Assembly (NCBI GenBank): GCA_017450695.1
Contig: JAFSTA010000133.1
Coordinates: 1 to 52,988, forward strand
Length of the DNA stretch: 52,988 bases
Reading direction: 5' to 3'
DNA from: Kiritimatiellia bacterium
GTDB lineage: Bacteria; Verrucomicrobiota; Kiritimatiellia; RFP12; UBA1067
Below are positions 2 to 35,896 of this stretch, in pieces. The notes under the pieces are model-generated. The model was not told the DNA's origin. It was given only the letters and a program-made list of their open reading frames with translations, and did not search any database. Made by a program: the position numbers and the translations under genes. Numbering within the stretch: the first letter of the stretch is position 1; the number at the start of each line of letters is the position of its first letter.

Positions 2-1405
2 CAGGACATCACGCTGGAGAACACGGCGAACGACTTCGCGGGCGCGGTGAACGCGGACGGCGCGAACGTTTCGCTCAAGGATGCGAATGCGTTGACGCTC
101 GGCGACGTGACGGCGGCAGATGGAGCCGTCAAGGCGGAAACCGTGAACGGCGAAATTAAGGTGGACGGCACGGTCTCCGCCGCAAAGGTCGCGTCAACCG
201 TTACCGATGCAGGTAATGTCATGTTGACGGCCTCAAAGGGCGTGACGGTGAACGGCGGCGCGTCCGTGAGCGGAAAGAATACGACAGTGACTGCGAAAGG
301 TGGCGACATCACGGTCTCCGGGACGGTCAAGGGGACAGACAGTGCGACCGTGACGGCCTCAAAGGGCGTGACGGTGAACGGCGGCGCGTCCGTGAGCGGA
401 AAGAATACGACAGTGACTGCGAAAGGCGGCGACATCACGGTCTCTGGGACGGTCAAGGGGACAGACAGTGCGACCGTGACGGCCTCTAAAGGTGTGACGG
501 TTGGCGGTGCGGTTGACGGTGGAAAGACGGCGACTGTTACGGCGGAGGACGGCGACATCACACAAAGTAGTGGCGCATATGTCAAAGTCGATGATAAAGG
601 GTATGCTTCTGGTTCTTTGACCGGAACGATTAAGGCAGACGGGACAGTTACGCTAGAAGCCAGCGGAACAATCGGTGGTAACGCGAACGGAACTGACGGG
701 AGCGGAGACTACGTGGTCATAGACAGCGGTACTGTTAGTGCTCTTGCGAAAGACGGCGATGTTTCGATTGCTAGTGCTGGAAACAACAACTTGAGGGTAG
801 CTAGTGCGGTGGGTAGTACTGTGCGAATCTATACATTGGGAACATTGACCGCCGACGGAATCAAGGCATTTGACAAGACAATCGTGAGTGCGGGTACGTA
901 TGGTTCGACGGTGAACGCGGCATCGCTCGGTTCCACCCTGCAAGTCAACAATATCGCAGGGAATGGTAATGTGATCGCATCTTTCCAGACTGGTGGAAGT
1001 GTTCCGAAGGTGGTTATCTTGAACAATGGGGTGGTGAGCTTCATCAACGGCGCATTCGCGGGCGGCGATATTATGATGCAGGCGAGCTTGGGTGCCGCCG
1101 AAGCGTTTCCGGTGCAGACGCCCGAACTCAAGAGCGAACAGGGTATCTTCGGAACTCCAGTCTTCCTGCATGACCAGCTGGATGTTGCGAATCCGCTCGC
1201 GATCGGTGCGATTGACTTCATCCTGCAGGATCGCGCGGGACTCACGCTCGGTGCGGAATTCCCGAAAGACGCAGACCGCCAGGTCGATATCATCGGCCTC
1301 AGCCCGACGACCTCATACTGGTTTGGAATGGATGACCGGGAGAACAAGAAGAAGGCTCTTGAGCAGTCCGAGGACGTGAAGAAAGACAAGCAAAGCAAGC
1401 AGTAG
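2..1405 (+). CDS. Repeat-rich adhesin-like surface protein, C-terminal part (5' end outside window)
   Basis: The frame is open from the first bases of the window, so the GTG at 47 is internal and the gene begins upstream; 467 residues are visible. The visible protein is a run of short beta-strand repeats rich in V, T, G, A and D, resembling the stalk of filamentous-haemagglutinin-like adhesins. A 42-residue unit (VTASKGVTVNGGASVSG...) is present in two almost identical DNA copies with a 126-bp period (about 228-480), followed by a diverged third copy. The last 100 residues are non-repetitive and end in a lysine-rich tail (KKDKQSKQ). No autotransporter barrel, sortase motif or PEP-CTERM signal is visible at the C-terminus. 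A strong terminator follows. A role in surface attachment is inferred from composition only. Confidence 0.75.
   Translation, partial: QDITLENTANDFAGAVNADGANVSLKDANALTLGDVTAADGAVKAETVNGEIKVDGTVSAAKVASTVTDAGNVMLTASKGVTVNGGASVSGKNTTVTAKGGDITVSGTVKGTDSATVTASKGVTVNGGASVSGKNTTVTAKGGDITVSGTVKGTDSATVTASKGVTVGGAVDGGKTATVTAEDGDITQSSGAYVKVDDKGYASGSLTGTIKADGTVTLEASGTIGGNANGTDGSGDYVVIDSGTVSALAKDGDVSIASAGNNNLRVASAVGSTVRIYTLGTLTADGIKAFDKTIVSAGTYGSTVNAASLGSTLQVNNIAGNGNVIASFQTGGSVPKVVILNNGVVSFINGAFAGGDIMMQASLGAAEAFPVQTPELKSEQGIFGTPVFLHDQLDVANPLAIGAIDFILQDRAGLTLGAEFPKDADRQVDIIGLSPTTSYWFGMDDRENKKKALEQSEDVKKDKQSKQ
228..482 (+). repeat. 126-bp in-frame tandem repeat (2 near-identical copies)
   Basis: Two consecutive 126-bp units, each coding 42 residues and starting around 228 and 354, differ at only a few bases. 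A third, diverged partial copy follows at about 480. The near identity points to recent duplication or slippage in an adhesin stalk. Confidence 0.85.
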
Positions 1406-1462: not shown

Positions 1463-4400
1463 ATGTCGGTTTTCAATCATATCCGGTTTGCCGCCAAGAG
1501 CGACATCGGCAGGAAAAGAAAGAACAACGAGGACTCGTTCGGGATTTTCCCTGCATCTGGAATCTTTTGTGTGGCCGACGGCATGGGCGGTGGGGACGAC
1601 GGAGAGGTCGCCTCCGCAGCAACCGTGCGAGAAGTGCAGCGGTTCTGCGAGTCGCATCCGTTCCCGCGCCAGGTGACTTACACTCGGGAAGGAATTCTGT
1701 CGGGAATCCGTGCCAGCGTGAATTCTGCCTCTGCGTGGATATTCCGACGGGCGCGGGAGCGTGCTCTGAAAGGATGCGGTTCCACGTTCGTCGGGGTCGT
1801 ATTCGATGCCTCCCATCCGGATCAGGCCGTGGCGTTGCATGCGGGGGACAGCCGACTTTACCGGATTCGCGGGCGCACGATTCAGCAGGTGACAACGGAT
1901 CATTCGGCAGCGGAACTGATCGGGGCGAAGGATGAGAAGGACATCAATCCGATGTTCCGAGGGATGATTCTGCGCGCGGTCGGAATCCAGCCGTCGGTGG
2001 AACTTCAGATGACGGAGTTCCCCGTGCGCGAGGGGGATCGCATCCTAATTTGCAGCGATGGATTGTCGCGTATGGTTCCGGACAAGCAGCTGCTGGCACT
2101 GATTCGTGCGAACCTTTCGCTTGAAAATGCGGTAGACGCGTTGATTGCGGCGGCCAATGCCGCAGGGGGCGTTGACAATATCACGGTGGAGCTGATAGAG
2201 ATCGGGGCGTTGCCCGAAGCGCTTCCCGCGATTCCGTTGCCGACAACCGTCGCAACCGCCGCTGTTGCGACCGCGCCCGCGACGAGCGCTACGTGGACCT
2301 CGTCCAGCGGGGCGGAGACTTCGGAAACCGCCGGCGGGAACGGCACTCCACCCGATTCGGAATCCTCCGAAGATCTTTTTTCGGTCGGACCGACGACCGA
2401 TCCGGGCGGGGACGAGGAACAGACCGGATCGACGATGACGATTCCCGAAGCGGCGGATGATGATGATTCGACGGAAGACAATGCTCCCGCTACCCCCAAG
2501 ATGTTACGAGGGACGGTTTCCTCTTCTCGAAATCGCAGGTGGATCGGGTATTCGGCGGGGATTCTTCTTCTGTTAGGCGGGGTTGCCGGAACAGACTATT
2601 TCCTCCTTCGTAACGGCGGGAACGTCCCGGAAAATCCTGAAGCTCCTGCTACGACATCCGCATTGAAATTTCTGCACGAAAAGGAGTCCGCCGAAGCGGA
2701 GGCGGAGAAAACGGCAATCGAATTGGTGGAGACATTCCGTCTCGTCTCTGAAAGACACCTTTTGCTTGAGGTGGAGAAAGACTGGAGCCTCTGGCAGGAG
2801 AGATGGAGTTCCCGGCTTGACGCGGAAAAGTACCGGGGATTGAAGGAACAGGTGCTGGCTTCGAGGAACGAAGCGGAGAAACGGATTCTTCTGGGCGAGT
2901 GCGAAGAGTCGGTGGAAAAGTCGGTGACCGCATTCCTGCAGGTGCAGAACCGCACGGAACTGGCAAAGCTGGAATCCGACTGGAGGGTGTGGCGGACGAC
3001 GTGGAAAGCGAAGGTGGAGGAAACACGTTTTGCCGATTTCGACGGGAAGCTCAAGGCCGCCCGTGACACTGCGGAACAGCGGATTGCGGACGAGGAGAAA
3101 CGGATCGCGGAGGAGAAGGCAAAAGCGGAGACGGAACGGCTATTGGCGGAATGCAGAAAGGGCGCGGATGAATTGATTGACACATTCGGAAAGGCGAAGA
3201 CCCAAGAGACGCTTGACAAGGCGGTTGTCGCGCATACGGCTTGGCAAGAGGAATGGAAGGAGAGGGTAAGAGACAAGAAGGGGGCTTATGCCGCGCAGAA
3301 CGATCGAATCCAGACGGCGCATACCGCGGCGCAGAAACGGATTGAAGCAGAGCGCGTGTGTAAAGAGTCCGCAGAAGCGTTGGTTCGTGGTTTCCAGTCG
3401 GCGAAGAGCGATGCGCAGCTGAAGGAACAGGAGAACGCTTGTCGGAACTGGCGCAAGAAATGGGAGGGAAAGATTGACGAGAAAGCGTTTGACAATCTTC
3501 ACAAAACCATTCGTGAAATGCGTGATGAGATTGCCGAACGACTGGCGAATGAAGCTGCAATCGCGAGCCAAGAGGCAGAACGAAATCGGGCGAATGTCCG
3601 GAAGACATACGAACTGGCGTTGACGAATGAACCGGTGGAGCAACGCGGCAAACGGCTGGAGGACGCAAAGGAAAAGCTGGCCGCGTCGAAGGAGCGGTCG
3701 CTGTTCTCTGAAGCGGAGACGGAGCGGATGCTGGCGGAGATCGAAAGGCGGCGGTCATGGACGGTCGGCAAGATTGCCAATCGGACGGGAAATGCGGTGA
3801 CAGTCGACGGGACGAATATCGCGGCGGGCACGACCGCGACGGTTGTCTTCGAGAAGGGGACTTCATGGCCGGTGACGCGTAAGGGGTACGAACCAGGGAC
3901 GGTGAAGCGCGAGAGCCTGGACGGCAAGACGGTCACATTGGCGGACGACGCGTTCGTTCCGAGCGAGGTGACGGTGAAGCTTCCGGATGGGCTGGACGCG
4001 GGTGTTGTTTGCGAATTCGCCGGGACGGACGTGTCCGCATCGGGTATGGCGATGAAGCCCGGAAAGCACGTGTGCGCGTACCGCCGTGCAGGGTACGACC
4101 CACAGGAGGGGATCTCGTTTGACGTTGCGGTTGGCGCGACAGACGCACGGTTCCCGAAACCGGAAAAGTGGGTGGCGTCACCGGTGAATGTGACGATTCC
4201 GAAATTGGAATCGGGGGTGACGTGCGAGGTGGATGGAAGGGTACAAAAAGGGGGCGAGGTGTTTGCGCTTCGACTTGGAAAGAAGTATCCGTACACATAC
4301 CGCAAGGCGGGGTATGAAGATCAAAAGGGGGAGATTTCCGTTGAGGTAAACAAGCAGCTCGCGCTCCCCAAGCCGGGGACGTGGAAACCGGCGAAGACGG

Positions 4401-4924
4401 TAGAGAAATCGCTCACGTCACCGATGAAGAAACCGGAGCAAGCACCCGAAGGGAACCCGGTTGCGACGCAGAAACCAACACCGTTCCCGGTTGGGGAAAA
4501 AACGGTTTCGGGCGAGGTGGATGCGAAGAATACAGATGTAGAATGGAAAAAATTTGTGGACAGGTTCATCCGCAAGAAGGAGGCTTTTTTCGAGGTCTTG
4601 GCCACGGATATGAAGAATAGCCCGGAACTCCTGCAGAAGCTGTCATCCGCAGCCGAACGGCTTCATGCGTCCGCGAGGATTGATGAAGGGCAATGCGAGG
4701 AAATCTGGGAATTGTTGCGTGATGTCGTTTCTCTGGAGAATGAATATGCGGCTGCCGAGCTGGATTCCATCAGTGGCAATGAGGTGACCATGTCGAAATA
4801 TCGACGGATTCAGGACGCCTGTACGGAATTCTTTTCTGGAAAAGACGAAGGGACAGGGTCGAAGATTTCCCGCATGACGAAATTTGTCGAGTCGGTTACC
4901 AAGAAAGACCCCGCACAGAAATAA
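1463..4924 (+). CDS. Membrane-anchored PP2C-family Ser/Thr phosphatase with extracytoplasmic helical repeats and PEGA-like modules
   Basis: The 1153-residue protein has an N-terminal PP2C phosphatase (about 1-245) with metal-binding signatures NNEDS (E23, D24), DGMGG (D39-G43), CSDG (D199) and GGVDN (D238). An acidic, Pro/Thr-rich linker (about 250-355) leads to one membrane span (about 360-382). Outside the membrane are four W-rich helical repeats of about 62 residues (about 415-700), then PEGA-like beta modules (about 764-975) and a unique helical tail to 1153. AAGGAG at 1450-1455 sets the ATG at 1463. It should dephosphorylate Ser/Thr on cytoplasmic proteins under control of an external sensor. 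The next gene is a multi-kinase protein with the same ectodomain, so the two probably act as an antagonistic pair. The catalytic assignment is firm; the sensing role is inferred. Confidence 0.9.
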   Translation: MSVFNHIRFAAKSDIGRKRKNNEDSFGIFPASGIFCVADGMGGGDDGEVASAATVREVQRFCESHPFPRQVTYTREGILSGIRASVNSASAWIFRRARERALKGCGSTFVGVVFDASHPDQAVALHAGDSRLYRIRGRTIQQVTTDHSAAELIGAKDEKDINPMFRGMILRAVGIQPSVELQMTEFPVREGDRILICSDGLSRMVPDKQLLALIRANLSLENAVDALIAAANAAGGVDNITVELIEIGALPEALPAIPLPTTVATAAVATAPATSATWTSSSGAETSETAGGNGTPPDSESSEDLFSVGPTTDPGGDEEQTGSTMTIPEAADDDDSTEDNAPATPKMLRGTVSSSRNRRWIGYSAGILLLLGGVAGTDYFLLRNGGNVPENPEAPATTSALKFLHEKESAEAEAEKTAIELVETFRLVSERHLLLEVEKDWSLWQERWSSRLDAEKYRGLKEQVLASRNEAEKRILLGECEESVEKSVTAFLQVQNRTELAKLESDWRVWRTTWKAKVEETRFADFDGKLKAARDTAEQRIADEEKRIAEEKAKAETERLLAECRKGADELIDTFGKAKTQETLDKAVVAHTAWQEEWKERVRDKKGAYAAQNDRIQTAHTAAQKRIEAERVCKESAEALVRGFQSAKSDAQLKEQENACRNWRKKWEGKIDEKAFDNLHKTIREMRDEIAERLANEAAIASQEAERNRANVRKTYELALTNEPVEQRGKRLEDAKEKLAASKERSLFSEAETERMLAEIERRRSWTVGKIANRTGNAVTVDGTNIAAGTTATVVFEKGTSWPVTRKGYEPGTVKRESLDGKTVTLADDAFVPSEVTVKLPDGLDAGVVCEFAGTDVSASGMAMKPGKHVCAYRRAGYDPQEGISFDVAVGATDARFPKPEKWVASPVNVTIPKLESGVTCEVDGRVQKGGEVFALRLGKKYPYTYRKAGYEDQKGEISVEVNKQLALPKPGTWKPAKTVEKSLTSPMKKPEQAPEGNPVATQKPTPFPVGEKTVSGEVDAKNTDVEWKKFVDRFIRKKEAFFEVLATDMKNSPELLQKLSSAAERLHASARIDEGQCEEIWELLRDVVSLENEYAAAELDSISGNEVTMSKYRRIQDACTEFFSGKDEGTGSKISRMTKFVESVTKKDPAQK

Positions 4925-5513
4925 CGAATCGTTGGGAAAAGATATGGATCTACATTCCTCTGTTACCGGACAGCGAAGTTACTCTCACACGGAGGCGCGA
5001 GGATGCGTGGATTCAGTAGGTTTGTGGTGGTTTCTGATCTCTTTTTTAACTTGTCCGGGTAAGCATATTAAGCCGGGTAAGCGTGTCAAGCGAGGCACTT
5101 CGCGCCAGCTGAAAAGCGGGGAAGCTAAAAAGCTGAGAAGTGTGATTGAAATGGAGACAATGTTACCCTCGTGTACATTCCAGCGCGGTACGTGGGCGGT
5201 GAGCTTACGGCCCACTGCCTACTCTCCGCAGCCTCTCTTGATTCCCCCGTTTGGTGAAGGATCGACCACTTTTTTCCCGTTCGCAAACATAGCTTTCTCA
5301 TTCGGGGTAATTTCAAAATCCGTGCGCAGTGTTACTGGGGAAACTGCGGAAATCACGGAAAAAGGAACGGTCGCAGCTCGTTTGATTCCGTGCAAATCTG
5401 CGTATTCTGCGGTTTTGAAATTGTGTCATTTGAAGGCCGCCGTCACGGCACGTGAGGATACGCGGCTTCCCGAACGGGAACGGTGCCATAAACCCTGACC
5501 TGTACAATACCAG
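4925..5513. other. 589-bp gap between the phosphatase and multi-kinase genes
   Basis: No convincing gene is seen. A 204-codon frame starting at 4884 overlaps the phosphatase and has no family resemblance. The gap carries fragments of dispersed intergenic repeats: a degenerate 'cgcagaggcg' element near 4985-5010 and GGTAAGC-type units at 5057-5095 related to those at 15355, 21440 and 32270. A TACAAT -10-like box lies at 5503-5508, immediately before the kinase ATG. Whether kinase and phosphatase share a transcript is not decided by the sequence. Confidence 0.6.
5503..5508 (+). promoter_or_regulatory. Possible -10 box (TACAAT) of the multi-kinase gene
   Basis: TACAAT ends 5 nt before the ATG at 5514, so initiation from it would give an almost leaderless mRNA. 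No AAGGAG-like site precedes this ATG. No good -35 is visible, so this is tentative. Confidence 0.3.
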
Positions 5514-8500
5514 ATGGGAGAAAGAAAGGACAGGGGTGTTGGGGGATTTCGAATCCTCCAGGAGATACGGGGCGGTTCCGGATCGCAAGGGACGGTCTTT
5601 AAGGCCGTATGCGAGGAGGACCGGTACGGACTCGTCCCGGTCGGCACGGTTGTCGCGCTCAAAATCATGCCGGTGCAGGACGACGAGGGAGACCTCTGGC
5701 GCAAGCTGGAAAGGCGGACGCAGGAGCTTGTCCGCCTGCAACACCCGAACGTGGTCCGCTATTTCGGATGCTTTTCCGAACCCGGGGACTTCAACGACCT
5801 TCATGTCGTGGTCCTGGAGTTTCTGGACGGGAGGACGCTGAAACAGCTTTTGGCGGAGGATTTCAAGTCCGGGCTGGATGTCGATGTGGGCCTGAGGATT
5901 GTCCATTCGGCCATCACCGGACTGAATTATACAGTCCAGTCCGGGATTATCCACCGTGACATCAAACCGGGGAACATTTTCATCTGCGAAGACGGAACGG
6001 TCAAGCTGATCGATTTCGAGATCGCGCGTCAGGAGGGCGGGACGAGCGTTTCCGTTTCTGGAAACATACGGGGATCCTTCGATTACATGGCGCCGGACTT
6101 CACCGATCCGGAATTCCACGGGGACGTCCAGAGCGACGTCTTCTCGCTCGGCGTGGTGATGCACGAGGTGCTGACGGGCAAGACGCCGTACCAGCGGCTG
6201 CCCGGAGAGGAGAAACAGGCGAATTTCGCGTTCCTCGCCCGCTGGGCGAAATCAGGGGACGGGCAGGTCTCCAACCCGATTCACATCAGCAGCCGGATCA
6301 AGCGGCTGCTGGCGTACGCGGATGAGGTCCTTCTCCGCGCGCTTGCGCCGAGACGGGAGGAGCGGTATCCGGATTTCGCGGCTTTCCTCGCGGACTTCAA
6401 GAACATCCGTCTCCGGGACTTGAAGAACGGCGCGAACACCTACCGCATCCTGCAATATATCGGCAAGGGCGGTTTCGGGGAAGTGTACAAGGCGCGTTTC
6501 CGTCAGACCGGACAACTGGTGGCGGTGAAACATCTGCTGAAGACATCTTACGCAGATCGGTTTACTCGCGAGGCGCGTACGCTGATGAAACTGCGCGATC
6601 CATGCTTCGTCCAGTTCGTTGATTTCTTCCACATTGGGAACGAAAGTAACGTCAATGTCTTTCTCGTCATGGCGTTTCTGGATGGGATGCCCGGAAACTC
6701 CCTGCGTGACGCGATCCGGGAATCAGGGGAGGGATTGCCGCAGAAAGACGTGTTTCTTGCGTTCGAGAGGTATTCGTACGGGTTGGGCCTGATGCACCAG
6801 CAGGGGATCTACCACCGCGACATCAAGCCGTCCAACCTCTATTATCCGAGGGGGAATCCCGAAAAATCGGCAATCATGGACTTCGGAATCATCCGTGACA
6901 TCCATGGGACGCAGACGAAGGACGGCGGGGTTCCGGGAACATACGACTATATGCCGCCCGAGGTGATTCTCCCGAACAACCGAGGCGACGCGAAGATGGA
7001 CATTTTCGCGTTGGGATTGTGCCTGTACGAGGCGTTGACAGGGAAGACGGGGTATCCGAGACTTCCGGCGGGGAATGCAGCACTGCGGGCTTTTTTTGAG
7101 CGGGCGAAAAGCGGGGAACCGCCGGTTTTCGACGATTTGAGGGTTCAAGGAGAACCTGACGTTCTCGCCCTGCTCCGCGACATGACCAACCCGTCGGCCG
7201 ACTTGCGCGAGGGAGAAATCCGCCGGATCATGTTGCGGCTACAGAAGCTGGCGATGAGAGCTGGCGCAGGAAAAGGAAAGATGCACCGATCCGATGATCT
7301 GATCGAGCCAGTCACGTCGAATGAGCCGCCTACGGAAGAGACAAATCCCGTTCATATTCCTGTAATCGGCGGATTCGAGGTACGGGCGCAAGTCCACAAC
7401 GGTTCGGGCGGCACGGGGACGGTCTATGAAGCTGTTTGCGTGAACGATTCCTCTCACCTGGTTTCGGTGGGGAAGCGGGTCGCTCTCAAGATTATGCCGG
7501 ACCGCGGCGACACGAAAGGCTTGTGGCCGAAGATTCAGAAGATCGCGGACGCGCTGGTGCGGCTGCGGGATCCGAATGTCGTCCGCTATTACGGTTGCTT
7601 TCAATATTCTGATACATACGGGCGCTACCATGTAGTCGTGCAGGAACTTCTGGAAGGCAAGAGCCTGAGGGAAATTTTCGAGGAACGGCGAGAGAAATCC
7701 CTCCCCTGCCTGGATGTGGAACATACCCTGAAGATCATTCGCGCAACCATTCAAGGATTGCGGGCAACGACGCAAGCGGGCATCATCCACCGCGACATCA
7801 AACCGGGAAATATTTTCATCTGCGACGACGGGAGTGTCAAGGTAATCGATTTCGAGATCGCGCTGCAGGAAAATCCGGACGGTACGGCGTCTACGACCAC
7901 TGGTAATGACAGCATGAAGGGGTCATGGAATTATATGGCTCCGGACTTTCTCCGCGAAGGATTCCGGGGAGATGTCAAAAGCGACATCTTCTCCCTGGGC
8001 GTGGTTTTATATGAATCGCTGGCGGGTAAACTCCCCCATGACCGGGTTGGAGACCTGGGGGAATTTCTCAGACTGTGGGAGGGGGTTGTCGATGGCGGAA
8101 AAGAGAGCCCGATTCATATCGATGAACGAATCGAAGGTTTGTTGGAAAACGGTCATGGCTTTTTCGAGTCCGCACTCCATTGGGACCGGAAGCTGCGTTA
8201 TCCGGATTTCGAGAGCTTTGAACGAGACCTCAGGCTCCGGGAACTGAAAAATGGGAAATACACATACCGGATCTTGCGTTATGTCGATCATGGCGGATAC
8301 GCAACGGTCTATGAGGCAAAACGGATTGATACCCATGCCCAAAAAATAATTGAAGCGCATGTGGCGGTCAAGCAACTCGACAATGTGTCTGCTATAAAAA
8401 AATTCGAGCAAGAAGCCCGCACGATGATGGATCTGTACGGGGACGAGCGCTTTACACGGTATATCGATTTCTTCCAACCCCCATTGGGATCGGGCAGAGG

Positions 8501-11500
8501 GTTTCTCGTCATGGAGTTTCTGGACGGGATGCCCGAAAACTCCTTGCGCGGGGCGATCAAAAGGAGTAGAGCCGGATTGCCGCCCCGAGATGTTTTCCTC
8601 GCCTTCGCACGATATGCCAGCGGGTTGCGTGTGTTACATAAAAGAGGAATTATCCATCGCGATATCAAACCGAGCAATTTATATTATCCGGCAGGACATC
8701 CCGAAGAATCCAAAATCATGGATCTGGGTATCGTCCGCGATGTTGATGCAACCGGAACTCCGACCCCTGGAGCTTGCGGAACTCCTGACTACATGCCAGC
8801 CGATAGCCTAGAAAATCGCGATGATAAAAGTAGGGATATCTTTGCGTTGGGACTGTGCCTGTACGAGGCGTTGACAACAAAACCTGGGTATCCGAGGTTG
8901 AAAAACAACCGGTTCTACCTAAATTGGTTGAAACAAAGGAAAAAAACTCCCGTTTTTGAAGATCCAAGAGTTCGCAAAAACACAAGGCTTCTTGGACTCC
9001 TTCAACAGATGACGAATCTTGACGCAAAGAAACGTGGGACTGCTGAAGATGTTTACCAAGCATTGCGCGAACTTGCGGTTACGGAGGGGGTGAAGGAAGA
9101 ATATCTTCGGCCATTGGACGAACCGAAAAAAGACGTATTGCCCATCGTGATACCGTCCCGTCCCAGCCCGCCGGACAATCAAGATCCAAATATCACCGTT
9201 ACGATTGATAGCCATCCAGATCAAACACCAGTTCGTTTCCGCAAGTGGGCGCTTGTCGCAGTACTTGTGATTGCGGTTTCGGGAGTTTGTATTGGTACCG
9301 TAGTTGGTGTTTCCTCCTTTCAGGCAAAACGTGCCGAAAAAGAAAAAGACGCGATTGTATCGGAGTACAAACAGTTGGATGCCCCCCAAAAAATTCGGGA
9401 CGTGGATCGCAAGAAAGACAAATGGGAACGAACGTGGAATCCGCTCTTGGCGGGATGGGTGAGAAAAATCCCCCGCAAAAAATACGATGCATGGGTGAAC
9501 GATCTTGCTATGTCTCAAGAAACGTGCCGCGACCGTCTTACGAAGGTGACGGAAGAGGAGCAGGCGGAACGGGATACGAAAGAACTTGTCGAAGATTTTC
9601 TGGGAGCGAAGAATCGTGCGGAGTGGGAAAATGCGGAGGCACGAAAGAAAGAGTGGGGGAAAAAATGGAGTTCCCAGATTGATGCGGAGAAATACAAAGA
9701 GCTGTTGAAGCTTGTGCTGGACGCTAGAAATAAAGCAGATGCCAGAATCAAGATTGTTGAGGCTTCCAACGCCTGTGAAGTGTTAGTCGAAGATTTCGGA
9801 GAAGTCAGAGGCGAAGAAGGATTCAAGCAGGTAAAGGCAAGGTGGGAAGCGTGGCGTAAGGACTGGAACGGGAAACTGGCTGATGCGAAATATGCCGAAC
9901 TAGACGGGAGGGTTCAGTATGCGAGTGATGCAGCAGAGTCGAGGCTGAGGCAGGTAAAGCAATGCGACGAAGCCAAGAAACAATTGATCGATGCGTTCCA
10001 GTCGGCCGCTGATCGTGGCGCACTGGAAAAGGCGTACGCTGACTGGAAAGCGTGGCAGACCGCGTGGAAGGAGAAAGTGGATCAAACAATCTACATCGAA
10101 ACCAACGGGCGGATCAAAGAGGCGCGTGACGCGGCCGAGAAACGAATCTTGGAGACCGAATGCAGGGTGGCTGCTGATTTTGTGATTAAATCTTTCCGGA
10201 ACGCGGAAAACGCCGATGACGTAAAGAAGGCGAAAGCCTACTGGGATACGTGGGGAAAGCGGTGGAATGGAAAGATCGACGGGGAAAGGTTCAACGGTTT
10301 CGATCAAGACATCAGGATTGCGTGTGAGGCGGCGGAGATCAAAATCGACGAGGGAATCCGGAAACTCGCGAGGGCGTGTGAGGAGCGAGTCAATCAAATC
10401 GTGAATCGGTTTGCGGCCGCCGAAAGCCGTCAGGATCTTCAAGCGGCGGTAGCGGAAGAGCAGCGCTGGCGGGACGAGTGGAAAGCGAAAATCGACGAGA
10501 GAGTGGTCAACGACTTCTACCAGAAACTGGAAGCGGCTCATGAAGAGGCGGAACTCCGGCTTGATTCGGCGGATGCCGTTGCCGAATCTAAAGCGATTAT
10601 CGCGATTTTCAAAGCGGTTCAAACCGTCGAGGGCTTGGACAAGGCGGATGACGAAAAGCAAGCGTGGGAAGAGAAATGGTCGAAGAAACTTGGAATCAAA
10701 GGAAAAGAAAAATATACTGAAATAGCCAAAGATATCCAAGATGCGTGTGACGCGGCGATGGTACGTATCAAAAAAACTGAGGACGAGTGCCGAAAAACGG
10801 CAGAGGAGTTGCAGCAAGCTTTCCGCGGTGTAACGACAGCCGACGATCTTGCGGTTCAGGATCAGAAATTCCGGGATTGGCAGAAGGTCTGGCGGGGGGC
10901 GGTATCGAGAAACACGTATGACGTATGCGAGCGAAGCATCGCCAAGGAACAACAAGAAAAGGAAAAGCAAATACTCGATGAACAGTTGAGGAATTGCAGA
11001 GAATCCGTTGCGAAACTGGTTGCCGAATTTGAGAAGGTCAAACTACGCGATGAATTGACACAGCTGGAAAACGCATGGAAAGCATGGCAGGGGGCATGGA
11101 AAGGAAAGGTGGACGAAAAAATCTACGCCCAGCTCGACAGAAGCATCCAGACGGCTCGCGATGATGCGGAAGGGCGTATACAGAACACCGCCGACTGTAC
11201 GGTTGAGGCGAACGGATTAATCGGCGCTTTCCGCAGAACGGAGAACAGGACGGATTTAGAAGAGGCGGACAAGAGATACCAGACTTGGCAGGATGCGTGG
11301 AAAGATAGGAAGCTTGTAGCGGATACGTATGTTGCGTGGAAAGAACGCATCCAAGTCGAACGCGCCGCCGCCGAGCGCCGGATTGCATTGCGGGAGGCGA
11401 AAGAGGCTGCGGACGGACTGGTGGCGATTTTCGGCAAGGTAGAGACAACTGCGGAACTGGAAGTTGCCGACAAAGATTACCGCACATGGCAGAATGTGTG

Positions 11501-13850
11501 GAAGGCGAGACTGGGCGCAGATGAGTTTGCCGTGCAGAACGGGCGTATCCAAGTCGAACGCGCCGCCACCGAGCGCCGGATTGCGTTACAGGAGGCGAAA
11601 GAGGCTGCGGACGGACTGGTGGCGATTTTCGTCAAGGTAGAGACAATTGCGGAACTGGAGGCTGCCGACAAAGTTTACCGCACATGGCAGAATGTGTGGA
11701 AAGGCAAATTTGCCGAGGGGGAGTATGCAAACCTCGACGGAAGTATCGAAAAGGCGAAGGTCGAAGCGGGGCGCCGGGTTGGAACGAGCGAGGCAAGATC
11801 TGCCGCCGGGATGCTGGCGAGGTCATTTGGCAGCGCGAAGGACGAGGGGGGGTTGAAACGCTTGGATGCAGAATGGCAGGAGTGGCGCGAGAAGTGGACT
11901 GAAAAGATTGACGGAGCGGAATTGGCGAAACTCAATCAGGTAATCCAAGACGCTCGGAAAGAGTCGGTTGACCGACTCGAACTTCTTGGAAAATGCCGTG
12001 AGGAGGCCGACAACTTGATCAGGTCGTTCGGGGCTGTAAAAGTCCGTTCGGCGTTGGAAGAGACGGACAGGGAGTATCGGGTATGGCAGAATAGGTGGAA
12101 CGAGAAACTGGCGGCGGATACGCATGCGGAAATCAACGGGCGGATCAAAGGCGCGCACGATGAGGCGGAAATTCGGGTGGTTAAGCTGGAAAAGAAGCAG
12201 ATGCAGGACGGATGCAAGGCAGTTTCCGACCTTTTCCGCAAGGTGAAAACCGGCCCGGATCTGGATAGGGCGAATGCGGCGTTTGAGGATTGGCAAAAGA
12301 AATGGAAGGATTTTTCCAATGAGGCGGAATATGGCAGAGTCGCTGCGGAGATCCGCGACGCGAAGGGCGCTGCCGAGAAGCGGATGCAGGAAATTGAGAA
12401 AGAGCGCACGATTGTCCGGGAAGCCTACGAGTCCGCGCTGGGGATCGAACCGCTTGCGGAGCGGCGGAAGCGGCTGGAGAACGCAAAGGGAAGGCTGGCC
12501 GCGTCGAAAGAGCGGTCGCTGTTCTCTGAAGCGGAGACGGAGCGGATGCTGGCGGAGATCGAAAGGCGGCGGTCATGGACGGTCGGCAAGATTGCCAATC
12601 GGACGGGAAATGCGGTGACAGTCGGCGGGACGAATATCGCGGCGGGCACGACCGCGACGGTTGTCTTCGAGAAGGGGACTTCATGGCCGGTGACGCGTAA
12701 GGGGTACGAACCGGGGACGGTGAAGCGCGAGAGTCTGGACGGAGAGACGGTCACGCTGGCGGATGACGCGTTCGTTCCGAGCGAGGTGACGGTGAAGCTT
12801 CCGGACGGGCTGGACGCGGGTGTTGTTTGCGATCTGGACGGAAGGGTTGTCGGGGCTGCGGGCGTGCCGGTGAACCCCGGCCGGCATATCTGCGCGTACC
12901 GCCGTGCAGGGTACGACCCACAGGAGGGGATCTCGTTTGACGTTGCGGTTGGTGCGGAAGATGCGCGATTCCCGGTTCCCGGCGGATGGACGGCGACACC
13001 GGTGAAGGTGACGGTTCCGAAACTGGGTGCGGGGGTGACGTGCGAGATGGCGGGGAAACCTCGCGTGTCGGGAGTGTCGTTTACGCTTGTACCGGGAAAG
13101 AACTATCCATACGTTTACCGGAGAGCGGGATGGCGCGATCAACCGGCAAGCCTCACGTTGCGTGTTGGCGAGGATGCGGTTCTGCCGCCTCCCGCGGCGT
13201 GGGATCCGCTTCCGGTGAAAGTGACGGTTCCGCGACTGGACAAGGGGGTGACGTGCGAGGTGGGTGACGCGTTGCGTAAAACCGGTGATGTATTCGAATT
13301 GACTCCACGGGAGAAACCATATCCTTTCATCTACCGGAAGGCTGACAGGGTGGAGCAAAAAGGTATGGTGACAGTCCGGGTGAACACGCCTCTTTCGCTT
13401 CCCGTACCGGGGGAGTGGGAAGAAACAGCGGGATTGCAAAAGCTGAATCAGGCGGCGAACGCCGTCGAAAAGGGGGACTGGGCGGATGCCGATAAACTGT
13501 TGAACGAAGCGGATGTCGAGGACGACGACAATCAGCGGAAGAAAGCCATGCTGCGGACACAGGTGGAGAACTCAAAGAAGTGGGCAGAAATTCTGGACGA
13601 AATATCTGAACTAGAGATGAACAAGGAGACTGTCGGAGATAGCATTGCGATTCTGGAGAGGTATCGCAAAATTGCGGGAGAAGGATTCCGGTTGCGAAAG
13701 ACGGACCGGGAAAGCATTGACGTGGTTTATAAATTCGGTGTGGAAGACTGTAAAAATAAAAAGGGGCTCACACATTTTGTTGGCGAGATTGAGAAGAAGG
13801 AGAAAAAACTGGAGAAGCTTTACCGGGAGCTTCTGGGAGAACGGCGGTGA
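5514..13850 (+). CDS. Giant membrane protein with four tandem Ser/Thr kinase domains, 15 helical repeats and PEGA-like modules
   Basis: The 2778-residue protein has four complete kinase domains in series. Domain 1 has K50, H147-R-D and D167-F-E. Domain 2 begins near Y310, with K339, H434-R-D and D456-F-G. Domain 3 begins near F621, with K659, H759-R-D and D779-F-E. Domain 4 begins near Y918, with K953, H1048-R-D and D1070-L-G. Domains 1 and 3 resemble each other (HRDIKPGNIF, DFEIA), as do 2 and 4 (HRDIKPSNLYY), so an A-B unit was duplicated to A-B-A-B. A single membrane span lies at about 1243-1267. Fifteen repeats of about 62 residues with a conserved W-x(6-7)-W core follow (about 1280-2340), then PEGA-like modules (about 2354-2650) and a helical tail. 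The ectodomain matches the upstream PP2C protein. Kinase identity is firm; substrates and ligand are unknown. The start has no Shine-Dalgarno sequence, but the first kinase strand begins at residue 12, so ATG 5514 fits. Confidence 0.92.
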   Translation: MGERKDRGVGGFRILQEIRGGSGSQGTVFKAVCEEDRYGLVPVGTVVALKIMPVQDDEGDLWRKLERRTQELVRLQHPNVVRYFGCFSEPGDFNDLHVVVLEFLDGRTLKQLLAEDFKSGLDVDVGLRIVHSAITGLNYTVQSGIIHRDIKPGNIFICEDGTVKLIDFEIARQEGGTSVSVSGNIRGSFDYMAPDFTDPEFHGDVQSDVFSLGVVMHEVLTGKTPYQRLPGEEKQANFAFLARWAKSGDGQVSNPIHISSRIKRLLAYADEVLLRALAPRREERYPDFAAFLADFKNIRLRDLKNGANTYRILQYIGKGGFGEVYKARFRQTGQLVAVKHLLKTSYADRFTREARTLMKLRDPCFVQFVDFFHIGNESNVNVFLVMAFLDGMPGNSLRDAIRESGEGLPQKDVFLAFERYSYGLGLMHQQGIYHRDIKPSNLYYPRGNPEKSAIMDFGIIRDIHGTQTKDGGVPGTYDYMPPEVILPNNRGDAKMDIFALGLCLYEALTGKTGYPRLPAGNAALRAFFERAKSGEPPVFDDLRVQGEPDVLALLRDMTNPSADLREGEIRRIMLRLQKLAMRAGAGKGKMHRSDDLIEPVTSNEPPTEETNPVHIPVIGGFEVRAQVHNGSGGTGTVYEAVCVNDSSHLVSVGKRVALKIMPDRGDTKGLWPKIQKIADALVRLRDPNVVRYYGCFQYSDTYGRYHVVVQELLEGKSLREIFEERREKSLPCLDVEHTLKIIRATIQGLRATTQAGIIHRDIKPGNIFICDDGSVKVIDFEIALQENPDGTASTTTGNDSMKGSWNYMAPDFLREGFRGDVKSDIFSLGVVLYESLAGKLPHDRVGDLGEFLRLWEGVVDGGKESPIHIDERIEGLLENGHGFFESALHWDRKLRYPDFESFERDLRLRELKNGKYTYRILRYVDHGGYATVYEAKRIDTHAQKIIEAHVAVKQLDNVSAIKKFEQEARTMMDLYGDERFTRYIDFFQPPLGSGRGFLVMEFLDGMPENSLRGAIKRSRAGLPPRDVFLAFARYASGLRVLHKRGIIHRDIKPSNLYYPAGHPEESKIMDLGIVRDVDATGTPTPGACGTPDYMPADSLENRDDKSRDIFALGLCLYEALTTKPGYPRLKNNRFYLNWLKQRKKTPVFEDPRVRKNTRLLGLLQQMTNLDAKKRGTAEDVYQALRELAVTEGVKEEYLRPLDEPKKDVLPIVIPSRPSPPDNQDPNITVTIDSHPDQTPVRFRKWALVAVLVIAVSGVCIGTVVGVSSFQAKRAEKEKDAIVSEYKQLDAPQKIRDVDRKKDKWERTWNPLLAGWVRKIPRKKYDAWVNDLAMSQETCRDRLTKVTEEEQAERDTKELVEDFLGAKNRAEWENAEARKKEWGKKWSSQIDAEKYKELLKLVLDARNKADARIKIVEASNACEVLVEDFGEVRGEEGFKQVKARWEAWRKDWNGKLADAKYAELDGRVQYASDAAESRLRQVKQCDEAKKQLIDAFQSAADRGALEKAYADWKAWQTAWKEKVDQTIYIETNGRIKEARDAAEKRILETECRVAADFVIKSFRNAENADDVKKAKAYWDTWGKRWNGKIDGERFNGFDQDIRIACEAAEIKIDEGIRKLARACEERVNQIVNRFAAAESRQDLQAAVAEEQRWRDEWKAKIDERVVNDFYQKLEAAHEEAELRLDSADAVAESKAIIAIFKAVQTVEGLDKADDEKQAWEEKWSKKLGIKGKEKYTEIAKDIQDACDAAMVRIKKTEDECRKTAEELQQAFRGVTTADDLAVQDQKFRDWQKVWRGAVSRNTYDVCERSIAKEQQEKEKQILDEQLRNCRESVAKLVAEFEKVKLRDELTQLENAWKAWQGAWKGKVDEKIYAQLDRSIQTARDDAEGRIQNTADCTVEANGLIGAFRRTENRTDLEEADKRYQTWQDAWKDRKLVADTYVAWKERIQVERAAAERRIALREAKEAADGLVAIFGKVETTAELEVADKDYRTWQNVWKARLGADEFAVQNGRIQVERAATERRIALQEAKEAADGLVAIFVKVETIAELEAADKVYRTWQNVWKGKFAEGEYANLDGSIEKAKVEAGRRVGTSEARSAAGMLARSFGSAKDEGGLKRLDAEWQEWREKWTEKIDGAELAKLNQVIQDARKESVDRLELLGKCREEADNLIRSFGAVKVRSALEETDREYRVWQNRWNEKLAADTHAEINGRIKGAHDEAEIRVVKLEKKQMQDGCKAVSDLFRKVKTGPDLDRANAAFEDWQKKWKDFSNEAEYGRVAAEIRDAKGAAEKRMQEIEKERTIVREAYESALGIEPLAERRKRLENAKGRLAASKERSLFSEAETERMLAEIERRRSWTVGKIANRTGNAVTVGGTNIAAGTTATVVFEKGTSWPVTRKGYEPGTVKRESLDGETVTLADDAFVPSEVTVKLPDGLDAGVVCDLDGRVVGAAGVPVNPGRHICAYRRAGYDPQEGISFDVAVGAEDARFPVPGGWTATPVKVTVPKLGAGVTCEMAGKPRVSGVSFTLVPGKNYPYVYRRAGWRDQPASLTLRVGEDAVLPPPAAWDPLPVKVTVPRLDKGVTCEVGDALRKTGDVFELTPREKPYPFIYRKADRVEQKGMVTVRVNTPLSLPVPGEWEETAGLQKLNQAANAVEKGDWADADKLLNEADVEDDDNQRKKAMLRTQVENSKKWAEILDEISELEMNKETVGDSIAILERYRKIAGEGFRLRKTDRESIDVVYKFGVEDCKNKKGLTHFVGEIEKKEKKLEKLYRELLGERR
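11346..11741 (+). repeat. 198-bp near-identical tandem repeat inside the kinase ectodomain
   Basis: Two adjacent helical repeat units (66 residues each, beginning near 11346 and 11544) share most of their DNA, including the stretch encoding AKEAADGLVAIF. The other repeats in this gene are strongly diverged, so this pair is a recent duplication. Confidence 0.8.
12494..12831 (+). repeat. 338-bp block nearly identical to 3676-4013 in the PP2C gene
   Basis: The segment encoding the last helical repeat end (SLFSEAETERMLAEIERRRS) and the first PEGA-like module differs from the phosphatase copy at only about ten bases by eye, with no length change. A second short identical block follows (about 4073-4139 and 12891-12957). 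The flanking ectodomain is much more diverged, which suggests gene conversion or very recent duplication. Confidence 0.85.
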
Positions 13851-32499: not shown

Positions 32500-33081
32500 G
32501 TGCCGATTCAAACATCCACTACCTTGTTGCGGGATATTTCGGGGGATCCGTTACATCCCCGGTGGGATGATTTTGTGGTTCGTTATCGGCCCTTTATGCA
32601 ATCCTTTTTGGAGCGGCAGTTTCCCTTTCTCCCGGTTGACGACATCGTGCAGGAGACGCTGGTCTCGCTGGTCAGGATTCTGCCCACCTACCAGTACGAT
32701 CCGGACAAGAAAGGGCTCTTCCGCAACTATCTGTCCGGCATCCTCCTCCGAAAGGCGTTTCGCATCTGCCACCAGAACGAGCAGTACCAGAAGGCGTTGG
32801 CGGATTTTACGGTCATTTCGGAAACGGTCGATTCCGAGGACGGCGAAACGGAATGGAAGAAGCAACTTTTTGAAATTGCGCTCCAGCAGTTTCTCGCCGA
32901 TCCGTCCGTGGCCGACCGCACCAAGCGCGTCTTCGAGCGCGTGGCGATCAATGGCGAGGCGCCGGAGAACGTCGCGCACTCGTTCAAGATGAACCGGCAC
33001 GCCGTGGACCAGATCAAGACTAGATCGATGGCCAAGATCCGTCAGCTGATCGCCGCGCTGGGGGAGGTCGCGTGTGTCTGA
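32500..33081 (+). CDS. ECF-like sigma-70 family sigma factor
   Basis: The 193-residue protein has region 2-like sequence (FVVRYRPFMQSFLERQF, then VDDIVQETLVSLVRIL, the DIVQET block being the core-binding signature). A region 4-like helix-turn-helix follows (RVFERVAINGEAPENVAHSF and MNRHAVDQIKTRSMAKI). AAGGAGG at 32487-32493 places the start at GTG 32500; the longer frame from 32434 starts upstream of the promoter. It overlaps the following kinase gene by 8 nt, so the two are translationally coupled. Sigma factors linked to Ser/Thr kinases are known from Planctomycetes and relatives (ECF-STK groups); here the kinase probably controls the sigma factor (inference). Confidence 0.85.
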   Translation: MPIQTSTTLLRDISGDPLHPRWDDFVVRYRPFMQSFLERQFPFLPVDDIVQETLVSLVRILPTYQYDPDKKGLFRNYLSGILLRKAFRICHQNEQYQKALADFTVISETVDSEDGETEWKKQLFEIALQQFLADPSVADRTKRVFERVAINGEAPENVAHSFKMNRHAVDQIKTRSMAKIRQLIAALGEVACV

Positions 33082-35896
33082 ATCCTCTGACACGTTTGCC
33101 CGGTTCTGCGCCGGACATTCGCCAATCCGGGATGACGCACGTTTTTCGGAGGGGACGGTTTTCGGCGAGTGGCGGTTGACCGCGTACATCGGGCGCGGCG
33201 GTAACGGCGAGGTCTATTGCGCCGAGAATACCGTCGCCGGCTTGCCCGCAGCCGTGAAAGTCCTGTTCCGTACCGAAGAAAACGCGCACGAACGATTCCG
33301 GCAGGAGGCGAAACTGCTCTCCCTGCTCCAGTCGGACGCGTTTCCGCGCTTCTATTCCTTTGGCGAAGCGAACGGCAGCCTGTACTTGGCGATGGAACTG
33401 CTGGATCCCGGCGAGCTGCCGACAGAGGAGCGGGAAATCGCCGATTTCCTGCTGCAAATCTGCAACGCCGTTTCGGAACTCCATGCGAAAGGTTTTGTCC
33501 ACCGCGACATCAAGCCGTCCAATATCCTGTGGCGTTCCGGGCATCCGGTCCTCGCGGATCTGGGACTTCTGAAAGACGTCTCGAATCCATCCCTGCTTCC
33601 GCAGGAATCGCTGACGCGCATCGGCGGACGGAAGGCGGGTGTGGGGACGCCGGGGTACGCGGCGCCCGAACAAATCGAACGGGGCGAGGCGACGCCCGCG
33701 TCGGACATCCACGCGCTCGGCGTGCTGGCGAACACCTGCTTCAACGGCAAGCCGCCGAGGGCCTGGCAACCCATCATTCAGCGGGCGACCTCCTCGATCC
33801 CTTCGTTCCGGTATTCGTCCGTCTCCGCCTTTGCGCACGCCATCCGTTCCCGGAACCGTCTGCGTTTCCGCTACGTGCTCGTCTCCGTCCTGGCGGCAAT
33901 CGGGATCGTCGGGTTGCTGGCGATCTTCCGCCCCGGTCTCCCCGCAGACGAACCGAGTCCGCCCGCGAAGCCAGATGTCCCCCAGGCTCTCACCTCCGCT
34001 GCGGATACCATGCCTTACTGTGTGATCGACCTGTCGGCAGGGCCGTTCGCCGCGAACTATCCAGTCTCCTATTTGGACAAGCCGCCGGCAGGCGGGTTCA
34101 ACACGGACGAGTACAAGACGACGAAACTGGTTCTGCGGCAGATCGACGCAGGCTCGTACCAGATGCGGAACACGAATACGGTGACGCTGACACATCCGTT
34201 CTACATCGGCGTCTTCGAGGTGACGCAGAAGCAGTGCGAACTGGTGACGGGCCAAAACCCGTCGCAATACAAGGGGACCATGCGCCCTGTGGAAAGGATC
34301 TCGTACACCTCGATCCGGGGAAATTCAAACGGAACGAACTGGCCGTCCTCGTCAGCCGTGGACGCGGACAGTTTTCTCGGAAAACTTCGTGCGCGGACCG
34401 GGTTAAAGTTCGACCTGCCGACGGAGGCGCAGTGGGAATACGCCTGTCGGGCCGGTACGACAAACGACTACAACAACGGCGGCAGTACGACGAACGACCT
34501 GGTTCAACTGGGACGGTATTCCGGGAACCAATCCGATGGCGTCGGCGGGTACACGAACGCGCACACGACGGTCGGTTCCTATCTTCCCAACGCCTGGGGA
34601 TTGTACGACATGCACGGGAATGCGCTGGAATGGTGTTTGGACTGGTTCGGACCGTTGCAGAGCGGAACAGATCCGAAAGGGGCTTCCACAGGAGAGAATA
34701 ATCGGATATTTCGGGGCGGAGGTTGGAAGATGGATGCGTCAAGTTGTACCTCTTTCCACCGTATGTTCGGGACCCCGAAATATGGGGGTGATCGCGGTTT
34801 CCGCCTTTGCTGGACACTGGAGACGCAAGTCATATTCCGCCAGGTGACGTTCGACGCAAACGGCGGAAACGGCGCCGAGACAACGCGGACGGTGGAAATC
34901 GGGACGGCAGTTGGAATACTGCCGACGCCGATGCGCCCCGACTGCGATTTTATCGGGTGGTTCACGGAGGCGGACGGCGGGAGTCCGGTGACGGCAACGA
35001 CTGTTGTGACCGATGCCGTGACGTACTACGCGCACTGGAAGACTGCGGCCCGCGTCTTTTCGCTCTACTGCGTGATCGACCTCTCGGAGGGACCGTCCGC
35101 CGTGAACTACCCGGTCAGCTATGTGGATGCGGCACCCGACGGCGGGTTCAACGTGGATTTGTACAAGACGACCAGGCTGGTGCTGCGAAAGATTCCGGCC
35201 GGCTCGTACATTATGGGGAGTATGCAAAATAACGAGTCCCGTCGCGTGACGTTGACGAAGCCGTTCTACCTCGGGATCTTCGAGGTGACACAGAAGCAGT
35301 ACGAGCTGGTTACGGGAAACAATCCGTCTGGTTGCAAAGGAGATATGCGCCCCGTGGAAAGAACCTCCTACGATGCGATCCGCGGTTCCTCGCTCGGGGC
35401 GCAGTGGCCGTCCTCGTCAGCCGTGGACGCGGACAGTTTTCTCGGCAAACTCCGTGCGCGGACGGGGTTGGATTTCGACCTGCCGACACACGCGCAGTGG
35501 GAGTACGCCTGTCGCGCGGGGACAAAATCGTGGTATAACAATGGCAGTGATTTCGAGAAGGATCTGAAGTTGCTGGCACGATATGAAGGGAACGTTTTTG
35601 ATGGCAAGGGCGGGTACTCGCGATACCATACCACGGTCGGTTCGTACCAGCCGAACGCCTGGGGACTCTACGATATGCACGGGAACGTGTGGGAGTGGTG
35701 TCTGGACTGGGATGGTGCGATGACATACGGGAAAGATCCCCCAGGACCGTCTTCAGGAAGGAAACGTGTGCGAAGCTGCGGGTGCTGGAACTATGGAGCC
35801 GAATATTGCGCGTCGCACAAGCTTGGCGCGTATCATCCATCGGACGCCTATCACTTCGATGGCGGTTTCCGCCTAGCCAAGTCCCTGCCCGAATAA
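33074..35896 (+). CDS. Membrane Ser/Thr kinase with two extracytoplasmic SUMF1 domains and an InlB-type repeat
   Basis: The 940-residue protein has an N-terminal kinase (about 30-255) with the glycine loop GRGGNGEVY (from G40), K62 in AAVKVLF, HRDIKPSN, ADLGLL in place of DFG, and YAAPEQ. A membrane span lies at about 264-286. Outside are a SUMF1/C-lectin-like domain (about 315-580), one InlB-type repeat (about 592-655) and a second SUMF1 domain (about 664-940). Both SUMF1 domains begin with YCVIDLS and match those of the secreted proteins at 43490 and 46275. The start overlaps the sigma-factor gene by 8 nt. A signal-sensing kinase acting on its partner sigma factor is the likely role. FGE-type activity is doubtful because the first active-site cysteine is missing. 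Confidence 0.9.
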   Translation: MSESSDTFARFCAGHSPIRDDARFSEGTVFGEWRLTAYIGRGGNGEVYCAENTVAGLPAAVKVLFRTEENAHERFRQEAKLLSLLQSDAFPRFYSFGEANGSLYLAMELLDPGELPTEEREIADFLLQICNAVSELHAKGFVHRDIKPSNILWRSGHPVLADLGLLKDVSNPSLLPQESLTRIGGRKAGVGTPGYAAPEQIERGEATPASDIHALGVLANTCFNGKPPRAWQPIIQRATSSIPSFRYSSVSAFAHAIRSRNRLRFRYVLVSVLAAIGIVGLLAIFRPGLPADEPSPPAKPDVPQALTSAADTMPYCVIDLSAGPFAANYPVSYLDKPPAGGFNTDEYKTTKLVLRQIDAGSYQMRNTNTVTLTHPFYIGVFEVTQKQCELVTGQNPSQYKGTMRPVERISYTSIRGNSNGTNWPSSSAVDADSFLGKLRARTGLKFDLPTEAQWEYACRAGTTNDYNNGGSTTNDLVQLGRYSGNQSDGVGGYTNAHTTVGSYLPNAWGLYDMHGNALEWCLDWFGPLQSGTDPKGASTGENNRIFRGGGWKMDASSCTSFHRMFGTPKYGGDRGFRLCWTLETQVIFRQVTFDANGGNGAETTRTVEIGTAVGILPTPMRPDCDFIGWFTEADGGSPVTATTVVTDAVTYYAHWKTAARVFSLYCVIDLSEGPSAVNYPVSYVDAAPDGGFNVDLYKTTRLVLRKIPAGSYIMGSMQNNESRRVTLTKPFYLGIFEVTQKQYELVTGNNPSGCKGDMRPVERTSYDAIRGSSLGAQWPSSSAVDADSFLGKLRARTGLDFDLPTHAQWEYACRAGTKSWYNNGSDFEKDLKLLARYEGNVFDGKGGYSRYHTTVGSYQPNAWGLYDMHGNVWEWCLDWDGAMTYGKDPPGPSSGRKRVRSCGCWNYGAEYCASHKLGAYHPSDAYHFDGGFRLAKSLPE

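Follow-up and report, generated by a model that had tools for sequence, protein, structure and literature searches.

A membrane-anchored PP2C phosphatase and a neighbouring membrane kinase of a Kiritimatiellota bacterium from the gut have ectodomains that evolve in concert, and the exchange of sequence between the two genes is both recurrent and recent. The findings suggest a matched on/off sensor pair that controls a Tad adhesion pilus. The window, i.e. the whole stretch of DNA analysed (52,988 nucleotides), corresponds to contig C28 of a draft genome of 5.0 Mb, and close relatives of the host are Kiritimatiellae MAGs from ruminants. Statements about the remainder of the host genome are based on targeted searches, and the loci of relatives were picked by PP2C similarity. 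Some of the proteins compared are cut at MAG contig ends (L120, L122), and L121 stops inside the PP2C.

Architecture of the phosphatase and the kinase

Both open reading frames are intact and open over their whole length (Table 1), and each protein has one transmembrane segment, as assigned by hydropathy alone. The PP2C matches PP2C_2 (E 3.2e-13) and the Stp1-type PP2C profile (NF033484, E 7e-52, under the curated cut-off of that family), and the alignment has every metal-ligand and catalytic motif of the fold. Its C-terminal part beyond the transmembrane segment comprises 771 aa, and that of the kinase 1514 aa. The kinase has four Pkinase stretches (Pfam, E 7e-138), and all four carry the Hanks-type motifs, i.e. 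the VAxK lysine, HRD and the D[FL][GE] aspartate. Variants of the DFG-type motif are DFE in domains 1 and 3 and DLG in domain 4. The 50% identity of domains 1 and 3, and likewise of domains 2 and 4, indicates that a two-kinase unit common in relatives was duplicated here. Thus the first-pass annotation was right in describing neighbouring membrane proteins with opposing activities. The two genes are separated by 589 bp in the window vs 6 bp in G002, the sister genome.

The window encodes another kinase (33074-35896, 940 aa), in which the kinase part is joined to a Listeria-Bacteroides repeat and to an FGE-sulfatase domain, and ends in a giant open reading frame (46275-52988) that runs off the contig and contains LRR_5, Flg_new repeats and FGE-sulfatase domains. 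Kinase matches in PADLOC and MADS reflect generic kinase similarity and are not taken as a sign of a defence function.

Tryptophan repeats, counted by script as W-x3-W, number exactly 4 in the PP2C (spacing 66-84 aa) and exactly 15 in the kinase (spacing 66-77 aa), with a period of ~67 aa; these are the counts the first-pass annotation gave. Shuffled kinase sequences have a mean of 1.4 (maximum 6). For the PP2C the shuffle mean is 0.32 (maximum 4), and a count of four is rare in shuffles. The two ectodomains are homologous, with 44% identity over 664 aa (E ~1e-162).

AlphaFold modelling of the ectodomain predicts a rod of long and short helices of the spectrin type, followed by small beta modules (mean pLDDT 84; pTM 0.37, a value at which the relative placement of domains is not reliable). 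The best structure match of the rod is beta-spectrin 3kbt (Z 10.9, rmsd 6.2, 216 aligned), which is under the level trusted for helical bundles. The rod of L129, also predicted to be spectrin-like, best matches 3edv (Z 13.5, rmsd 10.3, 274 aligned). If fully extended, the 15-repeat rod of the kinase (9411-12323) could exceed the usual width of the periplasm.

The modules after the rod had been termed PEGA-like. They resemble PEGA in being small beta domains in the predicted structure with a GxHxCxYxRxGY-like pattern, but a Pfam search of both proteins gave no PEGA match (PF08308) at E 0.1; true PEGA repeats are present elsewhere in the genome, on other contigs only. Pfam finds no PASTA domains in the PP2C or the kinase. 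A profile of the ectodomain alignment had no match among the sequences of solved structures, and a phylum-wide ectodomain search gave weak matches only (E ~1e-4).

Table 1. Features of the PP2C-kinase locus (window positions)
Feature	Positions	Strand	Basis
Giant filamentous adhesin of the two-partner-secretion (TPS) type, 3' end; contig starts inside the gene	2-1405	+	Sole genomic match to this C-terminus
Membrane-anchored PP2C phosphatase, 1153 aa	1463-4924	+	ORF, Pfam, family profile, motif alignment
PP2C catalytic domain, cytoplasmic, aa 12-245, motifs complete	1496-2197	+	NF033484 E 7e-52; alignment
PP2C sole transmembrane helix, aa 364-382, arginine-rich on the N-terminal side	2552-2608	+	Hydropathy
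PP2C ectodomain: 4 W-repeats, predicted spectrin-like helical rod, aa ~400-700	2660-3562	+	Repeat count, AlphaFold, structure match
Block in PP2C, 86.6% DNA-identical to kinase 12409-13050; recent exchange	3591-4232	+	dS 0.27
PP2C ectodomain small beta modules ('PEGA-like' in the first-pass annotation)	3758-4348	+	AlphaFold strands; no Pfam PEGA match
Dispersed repeat copy, ~50 bp, in the PP2C-kinase spacer	5081-5140	.	48 further matches in the host genome
Membrane Ser/Thr kinase, four kinase domains, 2778 aa	5514-13850	+	ORF, Pfam
Kinase domain 1 (VALK, HRDIKPGN, DFE)	5574-6311	+	
Kinase domain 2 (VAVK, HRDIKPSN, DFG)	6441-7058	+	
Kinase domain 3, 50% identical to kinase domain 1	7401-8042	+	
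Kinase domain 4, 50% identical to kinase domain 2	8274-9059	+	
Kinase sole transmembrane helix, aa 1246-1264	9249-9305	+	Hydropathy
Kinase ectodomain: 15 W-repeats, aa ~1300-2270	9411-12323	+	Repeat count
Kinase counterpart of the PP2C block, 86.6% identical in DNA	12409-13050	+	
Beta modules of the kinase ectodomain, homologous to the PP2C modules	12576-13433	+	
Helical C-terminal tail, kinase-specific, absent from the PP2C	13434-13847	+	Sequence

Sequence exchange between the ectodomains

A common ectodomain had been proposed from the repeat pattern, and the DNA bears this out for the window, as a block of 642 bp is 86.6% identical between the PP2C and kinase genes. Between the window and its sister G002, catalytic parts cluster according to gene (82-86% identity for the PP2C, 77-84% for the kinase domains); the ectodomains group by genome, with 44% and 67% identity within genomes vs 36-37% between orthologues. 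A quartet tree of the ectodomains of the two genomes also groups by genome (UFBoot 100). Within-genome dS of the ectodomains is 0.27 in the window, 0.35 in G002, 0.37 in L122 and 0.61 in L129, and the orthologue dS values for comparison are 1.39 for the PP2C catalytic part and 0.79 for the kinase domains. Since the values within the window and its sister are far under those between orthologues, the exchange postdates the species split.

Rod sequence differs between lineages and tends to match within a PP2C-kinase pair. L122 (70% over 94 aa) and L129 (48% over 388 aa) show the same exchange pattern with other ectodomain sequences, and L128 and L145 show older sharing. Over the 18 loci with both ectodomains, none of 20000 permutations with random pairing gave a similarity as high as that between own partners, and this holds without the window and its sister. 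The shared-ectodomain state requires at least four changes on the PP2C tree. It should be pointed out that dN/dS at the shared block is 0.43-0.54 within genomes, which is a weaker constraint than that between orthologues (0.23-0.36); the within-pair values represent some constraint and are no proof of selection for matching.

Distribution in relatives

The first-pass annotation proposed a search for linked pairs in other genomes. PP2C adjoins kinase in ~30 loci of the PVC group (Verrucomicrobiota, Kiritimatiellota, Lentisphaerota), and in many of these the contig also has Tad genes; thus the notion that the genes are never linked is refuted. The matched ectodomain as a design of the pair stands in part: matching is far above chance and is renewed by exchange, but it is not universal. 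PP2Cs that are tail-anchored and have no ectodomain are found in five loci (L133, L134, L136, L137, L139), and in eight others the PP2C ectodomain has no clear similarity to that of the kinase (L117, L119, L125, L130, L131, L132, L146, L149). The idea that the ectodomain is shared in all loci was therefore rejected; the shared design is frequent. Matching is not required for the core function, since in many relatives the gene pair is kept though the ectodomains do not match or the PP2C has none at all.

Loci of the Victivallales type have a PP2C of 274 aa beside a small kinase-like open reading frame, between a double-FHA gene and CpaF. RUG11483 has a kinase-PP2C-kinase triplet (L124, 7104-15846) with TadE, TadG and TadF upstream. 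RGIG2266 has two pairs of PP2C and kinase genes; that of L117 follows an adhesin 3' end, and that of L119 precedes CpaF2, ShlB and adhesin genes.

Tad pilus genes, FHA proteins and the adhesin

The identified neighbours of the pair are Tad and TPS genes. In G002 the adhesin gene is followed by those of the PP2C, kinase, CpaB, secretin and FHA-CpaF, and then by two genes that were assigned to TadB and TadC by position and similarity only. Tad genes near the pair (CpaF ATPase, secretin, RcpC/CpaB, TadE/TadG) were recognized by Pfam in G026, where the pair sits with CpaF, TadE, TadG and FHA proteins, and by similarity in G002, G018, G048 and others. Beside the Tad cluster of G026 there is also an FHA domain fused to a sigma-54 activator (L030, 4198-6072), possibly a transcriptional reader of the same phosphorylation.

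The Tad cluster of the host is on contig C107 and encodes an FHA-CpaF (FHA E 2.3e-19, T2SSE E 2.4e-69), a single-FHA protein and a double-FHA protein. Four of the eight FHA domains of the genome are in this cluster. Among 61 genomes, the PP2C type described here is present in 12 of 12 that have the FHA-CpaF type vs 5 of 49 that do not (Fisher 3.6e-9, kinship ignored).

The last genes of contig C107, on the + strand, encode CpaF2, a ShlB-type transporter and a TPS adhesin, of whose open frame the contig has the first 821 codons. Contig C28 opens with the last 467 adhesin codons, followed by the PP2C and the kinase, likewise on the + strand. The genome has a single TPS domain (C107:50803-51411), which is in the adhesin frame that runs off the contig end. 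As this domain and the only adhesin C-terminus lie at facing ends of the two contigs, C107 very likely joins the start of C28 through one giant TPS adhesin; the pair would then lie immediately downstream of the Tad genes. The end of C107 probably encodes the N-terminal TPS domain of the adhesin and its ShlB partner.

Possible function and alternative explanations

We consider it reasonably probable that the pair sets a threonine phosphorylation read by the FHA domain of the Tad motor, and that the matched rods co-assemble or read the same structure. The kinase would be the writer and the PP2C the eraser in a threonine phosphorylation circuit of the Tad/type IVc pilus cluster. Both enzymes are predicted to be single-pass inner-membrane proteins, with catalysis inside and the spectrin-like rod and beta modules outside. 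The kinase may phosphorylate Tad-associated proteins or itself, and the mark would be read by the FHA domain on the CpaF motor ATPase and by two more proteins of the cluster, whereby pilus assembly or secretion is switched. The PP2C would reset the phosphorylation. By analogy with the kinase/PP2C/FHA pathway of the type VI secretion system (T6SS), an FHA domain on the Tad motor may read the mark. Repeated exchange would keep the rods matched, so that the two enzymes assemble together or bind to one periplasmic structure, a candidate for which is the Tad machine or the adhesin in transit. Against this reading are the unequal rod lengths (15 vs 4 repeats) and the location of the host Tad cluster on another contig, the join being inferred.

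How the rods come to match can be looked at in two ways. A tentative but quite possible reading is that gene conversion under selection keeps the sensor domains matched, and that both enzymes read the same fast-evolving external partner via near-identical rods and jointly set the phosphothreonine of the Tad motor. The match may also be a by-product, in which one gene captured the repeat-rich 3' end of the other and neutral conversion homogenizes the two; the enzymes would then have different targets and the match would have no function. This fits with an exchange that is frequent, lineage-specific and located in repeats of adjacent genes on the same strand, with the relaxed dN/dS within genomes and with C-terminal tails that remain different between PP2C and kinase. 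Yet matching arose in several lineages with different sequences, always between the opposing enzymes of one pair, and the reading frames and catalytic parts are intact. A by-product appears possible but less probable.

The question also arises of whether the pair senses or regulates the neighbouring TPS adhesin and not the Tad pilus, with rods that touch the adhesin in the periplasm and report its export. The PP2C starts 57 bp past the adhesin stop, the adhesin-PP2C-kinase order is found in nine loci (the window, L116, L117, L118, L121, L122, L128, L130, L135), and ShlB and TPS genes follow CpaF2 in L119 and on C107. However, in six loci (L133, L134, L165, L182, L188, L191) the PP2C is flanked by an FHA gene and CpaF2, and no adhesin match is close by; thus the Tad link is wider than the adhesin link. 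The FHA readers, moreover, sit on Tad proteins, and we regard regulation of the adhesin as unlikely. Least to be expected, and in our view very unlikely, is a housekeeping circuit for cell wall and division, of the PASTA-kinase/Stp kind, that is near pilus genes by chance. The Stp1-like catalytic domain of the PP2C and the match of the kinase domains to the Stk1 family profile would agree with it, but the absence of PASTA domains, the strict co-occurrence with one FHA-CpaF type and the many further kinases elsewhere in the genome speak against it.

Relation to known systems

The statement in the first-pass annotation that no system of this form has been described was too strong. The mycobacterial membrane PP2C PstP is encoded with PknA and PknB, and PASTA domains occur both in PP2Cs and in kinases (PMC3052367, PMC12088040). 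These systems resemble the present one in having a membrane PP2C with an extracytoplasmic domain that is encoded with membrane kinases; here there is no PASTA, the ectodomains are lineage-specific, predicted spectrin-like rods that are homogenized between genes, and the context is Tad. In threonine phosphorylation of the T6SS, the kinase PpkA, the PP2C PppA and Fha1 are encoded with the secretion machine, and control is post-translational (PMC3224232, PMC3953482). Common to both is a kinase, a PP2C and an FHA reader in one secretion-machine cluster. In the present case the neighbouring machine is Tad, whose motor ATPase itself bears the FHA domain, and the phosphatase is a membrane protein that has its ectodomain in common with the kinase. 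PppA is a soluble cytoplasmic protein.

In class III CpaF, the Tad ATPase carries an N-terminal FHA domain, and the passages of that work on FHA, kinase and phosphorylation mention neither a kinase nor a phosphatase as its partner (PMC12019362). The Tad cluster of the host has an FHA-CpaF with this domain, and the locus described here adds a candidate writer and eraser. Membrane PP2Cs with ectodomains, PASTA domains common to PP2Cs and kinases, and FHA-CpaF are thus already published. What is new is that a PP2C/multi-kinase pair is linked to FHA-Tad clusters and that writer and eraser ectodomains are recurrently homogenized; no description of Tad together with an FHA/kinase/PP2C pair, or of such homogenization, was found in a literature search in which most subscription journals were outside the scope. 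The first-pass annotation did not include the pilus context (Tad and FHA), the presence of four kinase domains or the TPS adhesin next to the pair.

Significance

Bacterial kinase/phosphatase pairs are usually seen as a sensing kinase and an unregulated phosphatase. If both enzymes carry the same co-evolving external sensor, a signal would set writer and eraser together. As the locus offers a candidate writer and eraser for the FHA domain of class III CpaF, phospho-control of Tad pili becomes directly testable, and the repeated replacement of ectodomains, with matching inside the pair, represents a natural experiment.
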